A DNA stretch of 64,000 nt, from contig NZ_LT575483.1 of the NCBI RefSeq assembly GCF_900086705.1, positions 435,166 through 499,165 on the forward strand. The letters run 5' to 3'. Position 1 is the first letter of the stretch. Each line of letters opens with the position of its first letter. The DNA comes from Massilibacillus massiliensis. GTDB lineage: Bacteria; Bacillota; Negativicutes; FLKF01. Below are positions 19,467 through 62,935 of this stretch, one piece after another. The notes under the pieces were generated by a model. The model was given only the letters and a program-made list of their open reading frames with translations. It ran no database searches and was not told the origin of the DNA. A program made the translations under genes and the position numbers.

Positions 19467-19560
19467 ATCTTCTTTTCCTCCATTATCACCAAACTGTATT
19501 TAAAATAAGAATAAACATAAGGATTATTAAACGAGTTTATATTTCTACACTTTTCAGCAA

Positions 19561-19594
19561 AATTCCTTTTAAAAATTCGCCAAAACCCTTTATT
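19561..19594 (-). repeat. Copy of dispersed intergenic element (weak copy), upstream of flgB
   Basis: On the minus strand this stretch reads TTTTGGCGAATTTTTAAAAG followed by GAATTT. It shares the TTTTG-NCGAAT core with the copies at 33808-33840, 47174-47207, 62906-62935 and 32737-32760, but lacks the AGCAGGAATTTAT half at the expected place. It lies in the leader between the flgB promoter and flgB. Confidence 0.35.
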
Positions 19595-32736: not shown

Positions 32737-32760
32737 GGAAATTTATTTTTTGTCGAAAGG
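32737..32760 (+). repeat. Copy of dispersed intergenic element, plus orientation
   Basis: The plus strand reads GGAAATTTATTTTTTGTCGA and then AAGG. It matches the AGGAATTTAT...TTTGTCGAA layout of the copies at 33808-33840, 47174-47207 and 62906-62935, and contains a perfect TGTCGAA (Spo0A-box-like). It sits between sigK and the tiny ORF, and its end supplies that ORF's ribosome site. Confidence 0.5.
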
Positions 32761-32770
32761 AAGTGTTTGC

Positions 32771-32860
32771 TTGGAGAACTATTTAGGTGACTCTATGATA
32801 TTTTTATCTATTCTACTTATGATCGTTTATTCTCTTTGGGATAATATTTTTACAGATTAA
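32771..32860 (+). CDS. Candidate 29-residue membrane peptide
   Basis: A short ORF starts with TTG, seven bases after AAAGGAAG, and encodes MENYLGDSMIFLSILLMIVY followed by SLWDNIFTD. It has one hydrophobic helix flanked by acidic residues, and its stop codon abuts a strong terminator. I know no family for it. It lies divergent from sigK, so a sporulation link is possible but unproven. It could also be chance. Confidence 0.35.
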   Translation: MENYLGDSMIFLSILLMIVYSLWDNIFTD

Positions 32861-32905
32861 TTAAAAGACGGGTGCTAAGAGAAGTAATTAGCACCCGTCT
32901 TTTAA
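32861..32905 (+). terminator. Strong bidirectional terminator
   Basis: AAAAGACGGGTGCTAA at 32863-32878 pairs perfectly with TTAGCACCCGTCTTTT at 32888-32903 around a nine-base loop. It immediately follows the tiny plus-strand ORF, implying that a plus-strand transcript ends here. Confidence 0.9.
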
Positions 32906-33635: not shown

Positions 33636-33654
33636 AAGGTCACTCCTCTCTCTT

Positions 33655-33795
33655 TTTGCCTACGAGGTTAGCTGACGGGTTTGGGTAGTAGAGTCACCCA
33701 TAATGTACAACTTGCAAACAACATTTTACAAATCGCAACAGAATTCACCCCAAAAAATGGTTCCCCCGCTCTTGAGTTAGATTCGGCTTATTTAT
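33655..33795 (-). promoter_or_regulatory. c-di-AMP (ydaO/yuaA) riboswitch
   Basis: On the minus strand the leader contains, in order, GCCGAATCT, GAGCGGGGGAACCA, TGGGGTGAAT, GGGTGACTCTACTACCC, and AAACCCGTCAGCTAACCTCG followed by TAGGC. These are the conserved blocks of the ydaO class, which binds cyclic di-AMP and normally switches expression off. Its location before a wall hydrolase gene is the classic context. The end of the aptamer is only about 20 bases from the start codon, so the expression platform is short. Confidence 0.95.
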
Positions 33796-33807
33796 ACTCA
33801 ATAATTT

Positions 33808-33840
33808 CCTATATTCGACCAAACTTTATAAATTCCTGCT
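33808..33840 (-). repeat. Copy of dispersed intergenic element upstream of the c-di-AMP riboswitch
   Basis: The minus strand reads AGCAGGAATTTATAAAGTTT then GGTCGAATATAGG. This is one of the two best copies of the element (with 47174-47207). It lies directly upstream of the riboswitch, near where the promoter should be. Confidence 0.55.
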
Positions 33841-37764: not shown

Positions 37765-37795
37765 CCTTTTGCTTCATTCATATTTCACGCTATAT

Positions 37796-38147
37796 GTGAG
37801 TAATCAATAAGCCGAGTTTTGTTCCGCTCTCGCGGTGATGATCATTTATCTAGATACGTTAGTTACCTAACGATTCAAGCGACACAACCCGGAAGGTTCC
37901 GCGGGCAACATCATCCCTTCCCTATTCGGTCTTGCTCCAAGTGGGGTTTACCAAGCCAATTAGTCACCTAATTGCTGGTGCGCTCTTACCGCACCTTTCC
38001 ATCCTTACCTAATAAAATTAGGCGGTTTAAATTTCTATAGCACTTTCCCTGAGGTCACCCTCGCTGGACGTTATCCAGCACCTTGCCCTATGGAGCCCGG
38101 ACTTTCCTCAAATGCCAATGGCACTCGCGATCATCTTTCATACTCAC
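37796..38147 (-). ncRNA. rnpB: RNase P RNA (rnpB), bacterial type A
   Basis: This RNA is the catalytic part of RNase P, which matures tRNA 5' ends. On the minus strand it contains the hallmark TGAGGAAAGTCCGGGCTC near the 5' end, a CAGGGAAAGTGC segment, and AACAAAACTCGGCTTA near the 3' end. Helix P1 closes the molecule: GTGAGTA at 38141-38147 pairs with TACTCAC at 37796-37802. The length of about 352 bases is normal. It appears to be the ancestral A type rather than the B type of Bacillus. Confidence 0.95.
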
Positions 38148-41627: not shown

Positions 41628-41662
41628 AAAAAAAATACGCCTCCCCGTATAGGTTTAGGCGC
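41628..41662 (-). terminator. Regulatory terminator of the TPP riboswitch
   Basis: On the minus strand GCGCCTAAACC-TATAC-GGGGAGGCG (41637-41662) is followed by TATTTTTTTT. It overlaps the 3' edge of the TPP aptamer, so ligand-dependent transcription termination is the likely mechanism. Confidence 0.8.
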
Positions 41663-41765
41663 ACTTATCCCAGCTTCCTACGCGGGCATTATCCCGATCA
41701 GGTTTAAAGGTCTGGTACTTACAGTCCACTCTCAGCCCATAACATGAGCTCCCTCGCACATTATT
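41660..41765 (-). promoter_or_regulatory. TPP riboswitch (THI element)
   Basis: On the minus strand the conserved blocks GGGCTGAGAG, ACCTGATC, GGATAATGCC and GCGTAGGAA appear in the canonical order. Binding of thiamine pyrophosphate would lower expression of thiS-thiG-thiH-thiF-thiE. Confidence 0.96.
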
Positions 41766-43746: not shown

Positions 43747-43822
43747 TGGTGGGCGATAACAGGATCGAACTGCTGACATCCTGCTTGTAAGGCAGGCGCT
43801 CTCCCAGCTGAGCTAATCGCCC
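43747..43822 (-). tRNA. tRNA-Val (anticodon TAC)
   Basis: The minus strand gives a full cloverleaf: acceptor GGGCGAT pairing with ATCGCCC, D-loop AGCTCAGCTGGGAGAGC, anticodon arm CTGCCTTACAAGCAG with TAC, and T-arm GTTCGATC. The CCA end is encoded. Confidence 0.96.
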
Positions 43823-43848
43823 ATTTATTAGATTAAACGATATATACA

Positions 43849-43923
43849 TGGTGGGCCCACCTGGGATCGAACCAGGGACCGACCGGTTATGAGCCGGTTG
43901 CTCTACCGCTGAGCTATAGGCCC
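43849..43923 (-). tRNA. tRNA with CAT anticodon (elongator Met or Ile2)
   Basis: The cloverleaf has acceptor GGGCCTA with TGGGCCC, D-arm AGCTCAGCGGTAGAGC, anticodon arm CCGGCTCATAACCGG, T-arm GGTTCGATCC, and an encoded CCA. The CAT anticodon may read Met or, if C34 is converted to lysidine, Ile ATA codons. It lacks the C1-A72 mismatch of an initiator tRNA. I cannot separate the two options from sequence alone. Confidence 0.9.
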
Positions 43924-43936
43924 TCATTTTTTTAAT

Positions 43937-44012
43937 TGGCTCCTTGAGTAGGACTCGAACCTACGACCGATCGGTTAACAGCCGATTGCTCTACCAACTG
44001 AGCTATCAAGGA
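43937..44012 (-). tRNA. tRNA-Asn (anticodon GTT)
   Basis: The cloverleaf has acceptor TCCTTGA with TCAAGGA, D-arm AGCTCAGTTGGTAGAGC, anticodon arm TCGGCTGTTAACCGA, T-arm GGTTCGAGTCC, and encoded CCA. It is the first tRNA of the three-gene transcript. Confidence 0.96.
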
Positions 44013-45278: not shown

Positions 45279-47081
45279 TTATTCATAATGCATCTTGTTA
45301 ATTTCATACTTTATTCGTTGACTTTCTGCTAATTCCTGCAAAAAGCCCTCATCCCCCATACGTTCTAATTCATCGGCCTTAAGGCGATGTTGCTCATATA
45401 AATTTTTTAAATACGCCAAATGAACTGATCTTATGCAATCATCAATCAATTGCAAACTATCTTCTTCTTCTATTTCAATCAATAAACAATGCGATAATTC
45501 TATATTACTTTCTTCTTCCAACTTTAAAGAAGCAGTTACTTCATTAATAGGTTCTCCCATACGATAATTTTCTAATAAAAATTTAATAATTGCACGATGT
45601 TCGTTACTCTGGAATTCATCTATTTTTAACTGCGCCTCCAAATAAGGTATAATAGTATTATCATTCCATACCAATCGAATAATATGACGACCAGCACCAA
45701 TTGCAGCACAATCAACCTGTCGCACAAGTGTACTCATCTTTATATTCTGCCCTGTTTTTACATATTTATCCTTTTGTTTTTGTGGAATTATCTTTTTAAT
45801 TTCACTGCGAATTGCACTCTCGTCAATTCCTAGCTTCTGCGCAATGTGCGCAATAAATGCATTTACTTCAACTGCATTCTCTGTGGCTGCTAAGATTGGC
45901 ACTACTTGTGCTACAACAGCTACTTTTCCTTCCAATGTAGAATAATCAAACTCACTTAACGCTCTCTCAACTTGATAATCAAGAAGTGGCTTCGCAGCAT
46001 CGACTAATGCTAAAAATGCTTTTTGCCCGTGTTTACGAATAAACTCATCGGGATCCTTACCATCAGGAATCGCAATCACACGTACCTGTGCCCCACTTTT
46101 TTTCACAATAGAAAGCGCACGTATTGTAGCATTCTGACCCGCTGCATCACTATCATAAGCAAATATGATTTCTGGTGCATATTTTAGAAGTTTTTTACAC
46201 TGTTCGACTGTAAAGGAAGTTCCTAAAGAAGCAACCACATTTTTTACGCCATAATTATGCGCTGTAATCACATCCATATAACCTTCCATTACAATTGCAT
46301 ATCCAGCCGATTTTATATGACTGTATGCAAGATTTAGTCCAAATAGAATATTACGCTTATTAAAAATCGCCGTTTCTGGGGAATTTAGATATTTGGGCTG
46401 ACTATCATCTAAAACTCTCCCACCAAAACCTATCACTTGACCGCGCTCATTTGAAATAGGAAACATCACACGATTGCGAAAACGATCGTAAATACCTTCA
46501 GACTTTCTCTCTACGGCAAGACCTGCCTTTGTTAATACATTTTCACTGAAGCCGCGTTTTTCTAATGCCGTGGATAGTTTATCCCATGCCTCTGGAGCAA
46601 AACCTAATTTAAAATTATTTATTACATCATCATTTACACCACGCCGAGCAAAATATTCTTTTGCCGGTTTGCCATAACTCGTTTTCGTAAGACACGCATA
46701 AAAAAAATCCCTAGCCAAATCTTGAACTTTCCACAGTCTTGCCATCTCATGATCTCTAGCAATTTCTTGTGGTGTTTTTTCTTTTTGCGGCAAAGGTATA
46801 TTTAGCTTACTCGCTAAGATTTTTGCGGCTTCAAAAAAACTAACATTTTCAATCTTCATAATAAAATTGAAAACATTCCCTCCTGTATGACAACCAAAAC
46901 AATAAAAAAAACCTTTATCTGGCGTAACAGAAAAAGATGGTGTTTTTTCGTTGTGAAATGGACAACAACCCCAATAATTCTTTCCATTTTTTTTTAATGA
47001 TACATAGTCAGAAATGGTTGTTACTATATCACTCTCTGAGCGCACGCGTTCAATAAACTCATTGTACATTGTGTCTTTCAT
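45279..47081 (-). CDS. dnaG: DNA primase DnaG
   Basis: DnaG makes RNA primers for replication. The N-terminal CHC2 zinc finger is present (CCPFHNEKTPSF, then FYCFGCHTGGN), followed by the Toprim core (AIVMEGYMDVITAHNYG; APEIIFAYDSDAAGQNATIR) and a variable C-terminal helicase-binding domain. The start is the ATG at 47079-47081, preceded by AAGGGTG; the frame extends upstream to 47111. The product is about 600 residues. It lies 61 bases upstream of rpoD. Confidence 0.97.
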   Translation of the reverse strand: MKDTMYNEFIERVRSESDIVTTISDYVSLKKNGKNYWGCCPFHNEKTPSFSVTPDKGFFYCFGCHTGGNVFNFIMKIENVSFFEAAKILASKLNIPLPQKEKTPQEIARDHEMARLWKVQDLARDFFYACLTKTSYGKPAKEYFARRGVNDDVINNFKLGFAPEAWDKLSTALEKRGFSENVLTKAGLAVERKSEGIYDRFRNRVMFPISNERGQVIGFGGRVLDDSQPKYLNSPETAIFNKRNILFGLNLAYSHIKSAGYAIVMEGYMDVITAHNYGVKNVVASLGTSFTVEQCKKLLKYAPEIIFAYDSDAAGQNATIRALSIVKKSGAQVRVIAIPDGKDPDEFIRKHGQKAFLALVDAAKPLLDYQVERALSEFDYSTLEGKVAVVAQVVPILAATENAVEVNAFIAHIAQKLGIDESAIRSEIKKIIPQKQKDKYVKTGQNIKMSTLVRQVDCAAIGAGRHIIRLVWNDNTIIPYLEAQLKIDEFQSNEHRAIIKFLLENYRMGEPINEVTASLKLEEESNIELSHCLLIEIEEEDSLQLIDDCIRSVHLAYLKNLYEQHRLKADELERMGDEGFLQELAESQRIKYEINKMHYE

Positions 47082-47173
47082 AAGTTCACCCTTCATCGCG
47101 CCCTTATACAATTTACAGGACTTGTTAACTCAACTATATTTTAGACTTTTTAATTTAAAAATATGATATTTTA

Positions 47174-47207
47174 CCTAAAATTCGATAAAATTTTACTTTT
47201 TCCTGCT
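47174..47207 (-). repeat. Copy of dispersed intergenic element upstream of dnaG
   Basis: The minus strand reads AGCAGGAAAAAGTAAAATTT then TATCGAATTTTAGG, close to the copy at 33808-33840. It lies between the dnaG promoter and dnaG, so it would be in the leader RNA or an operator downstream of the start site. The rest of this 240-base spacer is AT-rich with nothing else recognised. Confidence 0.55.
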
Positions 47208-47222
47208 TTCTTGAAAAGTAAC

Positions 47223-47251
47223 TTTATATCATATTATTAAATTATATTCAA
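47223..47251 (-). promoter_or_regulatory. Promoter of dnaG-rpoD
   Basis: On the minus strand TTGAAT (47246-47251) and TATAAA (47223-47228) are separated by 17 bases, about 140 bases upstream of dnaG. Confidence 0.65.
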
Positions 47252-47313
47252 TACAAATTGCAAATATCCTTTTTTCCTATTGACATTAATGAATGAATTT
47301 GCTACATATTTGA

Positions 47314-60997: not shown

Positions 60998-61993
60998 TTA
61001 CCGAACAGGAAGGTCATCATTTTGACCCTGCGAACCAGCTTTGCTAATAGCATCCCTCATCTGTGTATCCGCCTTAATATTATTCATATTATAATAATCC
61101 ATCACACCGATTCTGCCTTCACGAAGTGCTTCAGCCATGGCATGAGGAACCTCAGACTGTGCTTCAACAACTTTCGCACTCATTTCTTGTGTATAAGCCT
61201 TCATTTCCTGTTCTTTCGCTACCGCCATTGCGCGACGTTCTTCTGCTTTGGCCTGTGCAATTCGTTTATCAGCTTCCGCTTGATCTGTCATAAGTTCAGC
61301 ACCGATATTCCGTCCTACATCAACATCTGCGATATCAATCGAAAGAATTTCAAAGGCTGTTCCTGCATCTAAGCCTTTCTCCAAAACAGTTCTTGAAATA
61401 TGATCCGGATTTGCCAGTACATCTTTATGATCTCCCGAAGATCCAACAGTTGTTACAATGCCTTCACCAACTCTGGCTATAATAGTAGCCTCGCCAGCAC
61501 CACCAACCAATCGATCAATATTCGCACGAACTGTAACACGTGCTTTAATTTTCAATTCGATCCCATTTTGAGCAACAGCAGAAACTACAGGAGTCTCAAT
61601 CACCTTTGGATTAACACTCATCTGCACTGCCTCCAATACATCTCGACCAGCAAGATCAATCGCTGCAGAACGTTCAAAAGGCAATGGAATCTGTGCCCGA
61701 TGTGCTGCAATTAATGCATCAATCACGCGGTCAACATTACCACCAGCCAAGTAATGCGCTTCTAATTGATTTACAGTGACCTCAATTCCAGCTTTATTCG
61801 CTTTAATAAGCGGCATGACGATATGTCCCGGTGGAACACGACGTAATCTCATTCCCACCAAAGTAAAAATTCCAACTCTCACACCAGCCGCAATTGCGGA
61901 AATCCACAATCCCAATGGAACAAAGTGCAAGAAAACCATAACTGCACAAACGATTAAAATAAGTAAAAACCCTGATCCTACTAAATATTGCAA
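60998..61993 (-). CDS. floA: Flotillin-like protein FloA
   Basis: FloA organises functional membrane microdomains. The 331-residue protein has N-terminal membrane segments ([20 protein letters not shown]), the family region [20 protein letters not shown], and a long Glu/Ala coiled coil ([20 protein letters not shown]). The start is TTG at 61991-61993, seven bases after GGAGGG; the ATG at 62008 overlaps that site. It follows nfeD, its usual partner. Confidence 0.96.
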
Positions 61994-62053
61994 AACCAAT
62001 CCCTCCATTTTAAATTAAATTTATCATAAATTGTCTAAATTAAATCACGTCCA

Positions 62054-62722
62054 TCAGCTTTCCTCTTTTTCTTCCTGTACCATTTCGTGTATTTGTCTTA
62101 CAACAATACGACTCCCATTGATTGCAACCACTTGTACTTTTGCATTCTTTTCAATGTATCGGCCTTCAGACACAACATCCAGTTTTGTATGATTCACCAA
62201 GGCAGTCCCGGCCGGACGAAGTTCCGTAATAACAATACCTTCCTTGCCCAGAAATGCACTATAATCTTTTGCACTGTTATATCCTTTACTCTCTGCTGAC
62301 GTATCTTTTAAAATAATCTTTGTCCATAATTTACTTGAAGGCAATCTTCTCATTAGCAAGGCAAACGCTATAATTGCAATAGCTAAACTAATAAGAAGTA
62401 TATAAATAGCCGAACTACCTCCACCAAGTGCTAATATAAAGCTGTATAACACAGCGACAACGCCAATCCCGGCAAATATGCCAACACTTGGCGTAAGCAG
62501 TTCTATAACAATAAACAAAATGCCAAGCAAAAATACAGCAATTTCAAAAAAACTTACCATGCCCGTCACAAATTGACTAAAAAAGAATAACCCTGCTGCA
62601 ATGACACCAAATAATGCACCAATCCCCATACCAGCAGTTTTTATTTCAACAAGCAGCGATAAAAAGATAATCGTAATTAATAGTATTTTTATCATTGGCA
62701 AGCCCCAAATCTCTGGCGGCAT
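62054..62722 (-). CDS. NfeD-family membrane protein
   Basis: The 222-residue protein has about five transmembrane helices (residues 10-125) and a C-terminal OB-fold NfeD domain (FLGKEGIVITELRPAGTALV, VVSEGRYIEKNAKVQVV, NGSRIVVRQI). The long ClpP-like protease domain of large NfeD proteins is absent. It is encoded directly before floA, the standard pairing. The ATG follows GGGAGG. Confidence 0.92.
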   Translation of the reverse strand: MPPEIWGLPMIKILLITIIFLSLLVEIKTAGMGIGALFGVIAAGLFFFSQFVTGMVSFFEIAVFLLGILFIVIELLTPSVGIFAGIGVVAVLYSFILALGGGSSAIYILLISLAIAIIAFALLMRRLPSSKLWTKIILKDTSAESKGYNSAKDYSAFLGKEGIVITELRPAGTALVNHTKLDVVSEGRYIEKNAKVQVVAINGSRIVVRQIHEMVQEEKEES

Positions 62723-62864: not shown

Positions 62865-62899
62865 ACTTTATTAAACTATATCTTGATAAATTCCCTGCT
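62865..62899 (-). repeat. Second, diverged copy of dispersed element upstream of nfeD
   Basis: The minus strand reads AGCAGGGAATTTATCAAGAT then ATAGTTTAATAAAG. It shares the AGCAGG-AATTTATCAA half with the neighbouring copy, but the TCGAAT half is degenerate (TTTAAT). Confidence 0.4.
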
Positions 62900-62905
62900 T
62901 TTATA

Positions 62906-62935
62906 CTATTCCACAAATATTTGATAAATTCCTAC
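62906..62935 (-). repeat. Copy of dispersed element upstream of nfeD
   Basis: The minus strand reads GTAGGAATTTATCAAATATT then TGTGGAATAG. It matches the copies at 33808-33840 and 47174-47207 in layout, with GTGGAAT replacing GTCGAAT. Confidence 0.5.

Follow-up and report, generated by a model that had tools for sequence, protein, structure and literature searches.

A short two-part sequence recurs between genes in a 64,000-nucleotide stretch of a Massilibacillus massiliensis contig (the whole stretch is called the window here), in front of operons with unrelated functions, and raises the question of what kind of signal it is. An earlier note on this DNA had listed six copies sharing one motif, an AGCAGGAATTT half followed by a TCGAAT-like core, and gave the element no name. 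Our analysis indicates that it is very probably a promoter for RNA polymerase carrying sigma-H (SigH/Spo0H), a class already known. Sigma-H is an alternative sigma factor that turns on gene sets at the end of growth, and in Bacilli and Clostridia it becomes active as cells leave exponential growth. Three of the six copies (listed at 33808-33840, 47174-47207 and 62906-62935, minus strand) do share the motif and are, going by their letters, sigma-H promoters of the ordinary sort; the element is real and had been left unnamed:

33811-33839, minus strand: predicted sigma-H promoter, GCAGGAATT-N11-GTCGAATAT, a conserved block in comparison with the Massilibacillus-like genome G001
47178-47206, minus strand: predicted proximal sigma-H promoter of dnaG-rpoD, GCAGGAAAA-N11-ATCGAATTT
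62906-62935, minus strand: predicted sigma-H promoter of the floA-containing operon, GTAGGAATT-N12-GTGGAATAG, gap 18

Their consensus consists of RNAGGAWWW, 11-12 bases and RNNGAATWW, with 17-18 bases from AGGA to GAAT; the AGCAGGAATTT half corresponds to the -35 element and the TCGAAT half to the end of the -10 element. In the 64 kb window we counted four instances of the strict pattern RNAGGAWWW-N10-13-RNNGAATWW, where a dinucleotide-preserving random model predicts 0.4. Spacing and nearly every base of the solid copies agree with the published SigH consensus, (A/G)(A/C)AGG(A/G)WWW-N11-12-(A/G)(A/G)(A/C)GAAW (PMC4754846): the -35 boxes fit (A/G)(A/C)AGG(A/G)WWW, GAAT follows three bases into the -10 box, where the consensus also permits the GAAA of a further copy ahead of flgB, and the 17-18 bases between AGGA and GAAT are kept. 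Sigma-H promoters of B. subtilis and Listeria, which belong to a different Firmicutes lineage, have the same boxes at the same spacing (PMC4754846). Sporomusa sphaeroides KIAC belongs to the same class as M. massiliensis (Negativicutes), and a dRNA-seq study describes 322 SigH-type starts there with a -35 AGGA, a -10 GAAT and 17-18 nt spacers, hundreds of sites that lie upstream of spo0A and numerous metabolic genes (PMC12456013). This was the one start-site map for Negativicutes that we found; its promoters were mapped by dRNA-seq, whereas those of M. massiliensis are deduced from sequence.

The remaining listed copies did not stand as such. The one at 19561-19594 was read in the wrong register (see flgB below), and two are not copies:

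32737-32760, plus strand: not a copy; an TTTTGTCGAA (Spo0A-box-like) stretch with no -35 at the right distance
62865-62899, minus strand: not a copy; a -35-like half with a broken -10, score 8.8

The plus-strand stretch has a motif score of 2.2, against 17-19.5 for real copies, and the 62865 stretch is lost in the nearest relative, G001, where the adjoining 62906 site is kept. The former had been assigned to a tiny ORF next to sigK, but the AGGA half is absent at the right distance and we recognised no sigma-H-type promoter for this ORF (approximately 32797-32862, plus strand). The ORF itself reads MIFLSILLMIVYSLWDNIFTD, 21 hydrophobic residues divergent from sigK, and is followed by a strong terminator-like hairpin. 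Two sites were missing from the list, namely 47244-47272, a second site ahead of dnaG, and 45311-45339, inside dnaG and before rpoD.

A cognate sigma factor is present, with one SigH encoded in the genome (TIGR02859, 376 bits; cut-off 294.8). The motif stands at gap 17 ahead of two known sigma-H targets in the same genome, spo0A (GAAGGAATT-N11-GTCGAATGA) and spoIIAA (GCAGGAAAA-N11-ATAGAATAA). The textbook target spoVG was looked for in the genome and not found, and no sigma-H site was found upstream of sigH itself. A scan of the genome with AGGAWWW-N-SGAATW at eight spacings gave 124 matches; among the 100 of them listed, 28 have gap 17 and each of the seven other gaps accounts for 8-13. Location relative to genes was measured on 60 matches, and 22 of the 40 at gap 17-18 are intergenic versus 0 of the 20 at other gaps (Fisher p = 9e-6). 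Every one of these 22 faces a gene on its own strand, the orientation that the earlier note had asked to be checked in a genome scan. Its statement that all copies are intergenic fails as a general rule: off-target matches inside genes occur genome-wide, and the window holds a perfect match within dnaG. Downstream genes of the matches include the window's dnaG and NlpC/P60 hydrolase and, outside it, apparent recJ, yggS-type, yicC-type, comEA, yqeK, HU, glnS, parA and cheR genes, names that come from reading the sequences, with no profile matches behind them. In Listeria, comEA is a sigma-H target, and the comEA-like gene preceded by a match in M. massiliensis is likewise named by sequence reading.

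The pattern extends across the class. In a set of 30 genomes we counted 847 matches to the gap-17 pattern and 156 to a reversed control; 29 of the genomes show the excess, and SigH exceeds the cut-off in 28. One relative, G003, has a SigH above the cut-off, yet its motif count shows no excess (4 matches versus 5 in the control), a point against the sigma-H reading.

One rival idea is that the element is a small repeat of mobile or MITE-like origin, dispersed by insertion in spacers. Several copies do lie in spacers, as such a repeat would; against this, information in the middle of the spacer between the boxes is 0.05-0.14 bits per base, the boxes alone being shared, and, throughout the class, orthologous genes have their sites at the same upstream position. 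We saw neither common flanks nor target-site duplications among the copies. We consider the repeat refuted because no sequence is common beyond the two boxes, and its probability is negligible. The other proposal, an operator of a global regulator, survives in half: a global regulator is indicated, in the form of an alternative sigma factor, but the site would be its promoter and not an operator.

The sigma-H promoter reading can be followed most closely at the dnaG-rpoD operon, which includes the following features in addition to the proximal site:

47244-47272, minus strand: predicted distal tandem sigma-H promoter of dnaG-rpoD, AAAGGATAT-N11-ATTGAATAT
45279-47111, minus strand: dnaG (primase), TIGR01391, 484 bits
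44096-45217, minus strand: rpoD/sigA (primary sigma factor), NF006666, 659 bits
45311-45339, minus strand: candidate sigma-H promoter in the 3' end of dnaG, GCAGGAATT-N11-AACGAATAA, approximately 95 bases before rpoD

The two upstream sites (47178-47272, minus strand) are 66 bases apart and represent two sub-consensuses. A significant site lies upstream of dnaG in 27 of the 30 genomes. In a second, named Negativicutes set, a coding-strand site exceeds the score threshold in 69 of 79 dnaG loci and the opposite strand reaches it in 0 of 79, so the conservation at orthologous promoters that the earlier note had proposed to look for is present. An accidental negative control points the same way, with no signal from minus-strand matches in un-oriented loci and a signal in nearly all correctly oriented ones. 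When gaps of 12-24 were scanned upstream of dnaG, 95 of 100 sites had gap 17; at least two sites, in tandem like those of the window, occur in 22 of the 79 loci. The closest named relative of the window's DnaG is from Massilibacillus (87%); Pelosinus and Sporomusa come next.

The 69 best dnaG-upstream sites also speak to the proposal of a Spo0A operator (0A box) in the core, with Spo0A-P acting at these promoters. AGGA is present in 69 of 69, partly by selection, and GAAT is conserved with it, whereas the position just before GAAT shows no conservation (A 0.28, C 0.10, G 0.35, T 0.28). In favour of an 0A box, TCGAA is similar to the last letters of TGTCGAA, the genome has a gene for Spo0A, the box has the letters CGAA in common with some copies, and the weak copies at 32751 (plus strand) and 19576 (minus strand) contain TGNCGAA. 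The solid copies, however, read GGTCGAA, TATCGAA and TGTGGAA, none of them TGNCGAA, and specific Spo0A binding needs G2, C4 and G5 of TGTCGAA (PMC3485338), so that the comparison with Spo0A binding requirements, which the earlier note had recommended, goes against its own likening of the core to that box. Across the window TGNCGAA is barely above expectation (38 versus 29.7), and an 0A box has neither an AGGA half nor a fixed spacing, both of which it would leave unexplained. The lack of conservation just before GAAT excludes the box as the conserved signal; we rejected this reading and regard it as very improbable.

For the sigma-H promoters, B. subtilis offers a counterpart in the same operon, with one promoter reportedly mapped in front of dnaE (= dnaG) and a second in front of sigA. 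The dnaG-sigA operon of that species is documented as having two sigma-H promoters (PMC2824700); yqxD precedes dnaG there, unlike here, and the comparison is at the level of the operon. Sigma-H input into the dnaG-rpoD operon would thus be a conserved trait, common to the B. subtilis operon.

The perfect match at 45311-45339 lies within coding sequence, where GCAGGAATTAGCAGAAAGTCAACGAATAA encodes QELAESQRI. We searched for this peptide, as QELAESQRI or EELAESQRI, and found it in 20 relatives. Its arginine codon is CGA in 17 of the 20, against 12% of dnaG arginine codons (p = 3e-13), and its leucine is TTA or TTG in 19 of the 20, against 50%; the relatives are akin to each other, and the p values therefore overstate the case. 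An Acidaminococcus locus (L255) has a different peptide and yet keeps AGAGGAATT-N11-GACGAATAA. Together, the codon bias and the retention in L255 suggest selection on the DNA, that is, a putative promoter for rpoD.

The site first noticed precedes a riboswitch and a wall hydrolase gene:

33641-33798, minus strand: c-di-AMP (ydaO) riboswitch aptamer, Rfam RF00379, 91.8 bits
32979-33635, minus strand: NlpC/P60 wall hydrolase, NCBIfam matches

The -10 of the 33811 promoter ends approximately 13 bases before the aptamer, which follows directly downstream. Most relatives in which the riboswitch precedes this NlpC/P60 gene likewise have an RNAGGA -35 with a GAA -10 at gap 17, located 8-17 bases before the aptamer (e.g., L163, L166, L169, L173, L177, L178, L182), the -10 being weaker in L170, L175 and L176. 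Riboswitches that precede a different gene family (L154, L156, L157) lack such a promoter. A c-di-AMP riboswitch controls an nlpC gene in Corynebacterium (PMC9960051). Our full-text literature search found no paper on a c-di-AMP riboswitch combined with a sigma-H promoter; it yielded a study in which cdaS, a diadenylate cyclase gene of B. thuringiensis, was shown to depend on sigma-H (PMC4568413), and a structural paper on a riboswitch with no bearing on the question. The available part of the Sporomusa paper discusses neither the NlpC/P60 riboswitch unit nor the site inside dnaG (PMC12456013). We point out this promoter-riboswitch pair for a wall hydrolase: if a sigma-H promoter does feed the c-di-AMP riboswitch, growth phase and c-di-AMP would be combined at one gene.

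Evidence is more mixed at the two remaining operons:

60998-62008, minus strand: floA, downstream of the 62906 promoter, NF010186, 557 bits
19540-19569, minus strand: sigma-H-like promoter of flgB, AAAGGAATT-N12-GTAGAAATA, weak -10

The copy described as preceding nfeD-floA holds up as a predicted promoter upstream of the floA operon, but nfeD (62054-62722) has no NCBIfam match. The 62906 site is conserved in G001 and its flanks are not. Within 1.4 kb upstream of floA, a site with p < 0.05 occurs in 11 of 26 loci, some at unrelated positions, and the presence of this gap-18 site in only some relatives counts against the sigma-H reading.

At flgB, the stretch listed at 19561-19594 has its halves in the opposite order and overlaps only the -35 half of 19540-19569, in which GAAA replaces GAAT. 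When the -10 requirement was relaxed to GAAW, a significant site on the coding strand appeared upstream of flgB in 18 of 23 relatives, and in none of the 23 does the other strand reach the same score. Most of these sites have GTAGAA as their -10 and lie at a distance of 95-145 bases from flgB, the typical form being AAAGGATTT-N11-GTAGAAnTA. A sigma-H-type promoter is plausible here, an assignment made less certain by the variable last base of the -10. Just upstream, at 19576-19582 (minus strand), the DNA reads TTTTGGCGAATTTTT, which is Spo0A-box-like.

The weak flgB -10 could in principle serve another sigma factor, and this leads to a broader alternative, in which the motif belongs to some alternative sigma factor other than sigma-H, or to sigma-A promoters of an overlapping class with an activator. 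The GTAGAAnTA of the flgB sites fits such a view, as does the slightly different sub-consensus of the distal dnaG sites (AAAGGATATTT, ATTGAATA). Both sub-types nevertheless retain AGGA and GAA at gap 17-18, which places them inside the published SigH consensus or near it, and the motif marks the sigma-H targets spo0A and spoIIAA, which leaves this alternative highly unlikely.

Taking the sites as sigma-H promoters, we infer binding, start points and timing as follows. Once sigma-H turns active, polymerase would initiate a few bases downstream of GAAT and yield transcripts of the c-di-AMP riboswitch with the NlpC/P60 hydrolase, of the dnaG-rpoD operon and of the floA operon. The dnaG-rpoD input would come from the two tandem sites plus the one inside dnaG for rpoD, and flgB would also be transcribed by sigma-H, from its weaker -10. 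The chances seem to us evenly balanced that sigma-H acts in Negativicutes as a wide-ranging regulator tied into housekeeping functions, with up to three promoters at dnaG-rpoD (the one inside dnaG being codon-constrained), a conserved sigma-H-like promoter at flgB and a promoter-riboswitch arrangement at a wall hydrolase next to sigK. The checked promoter model (AGGA, gap 17, GAAT) offers a means of annotating the sigma-H regulon of Negativicutes.

The Rfam scan of the window additionally located a class A RNase P RNA (37793-38146, minus strand), a TPP riboswitch (41658-41765, minus strand) and three tRNA genes (43750-44012, minus strand).
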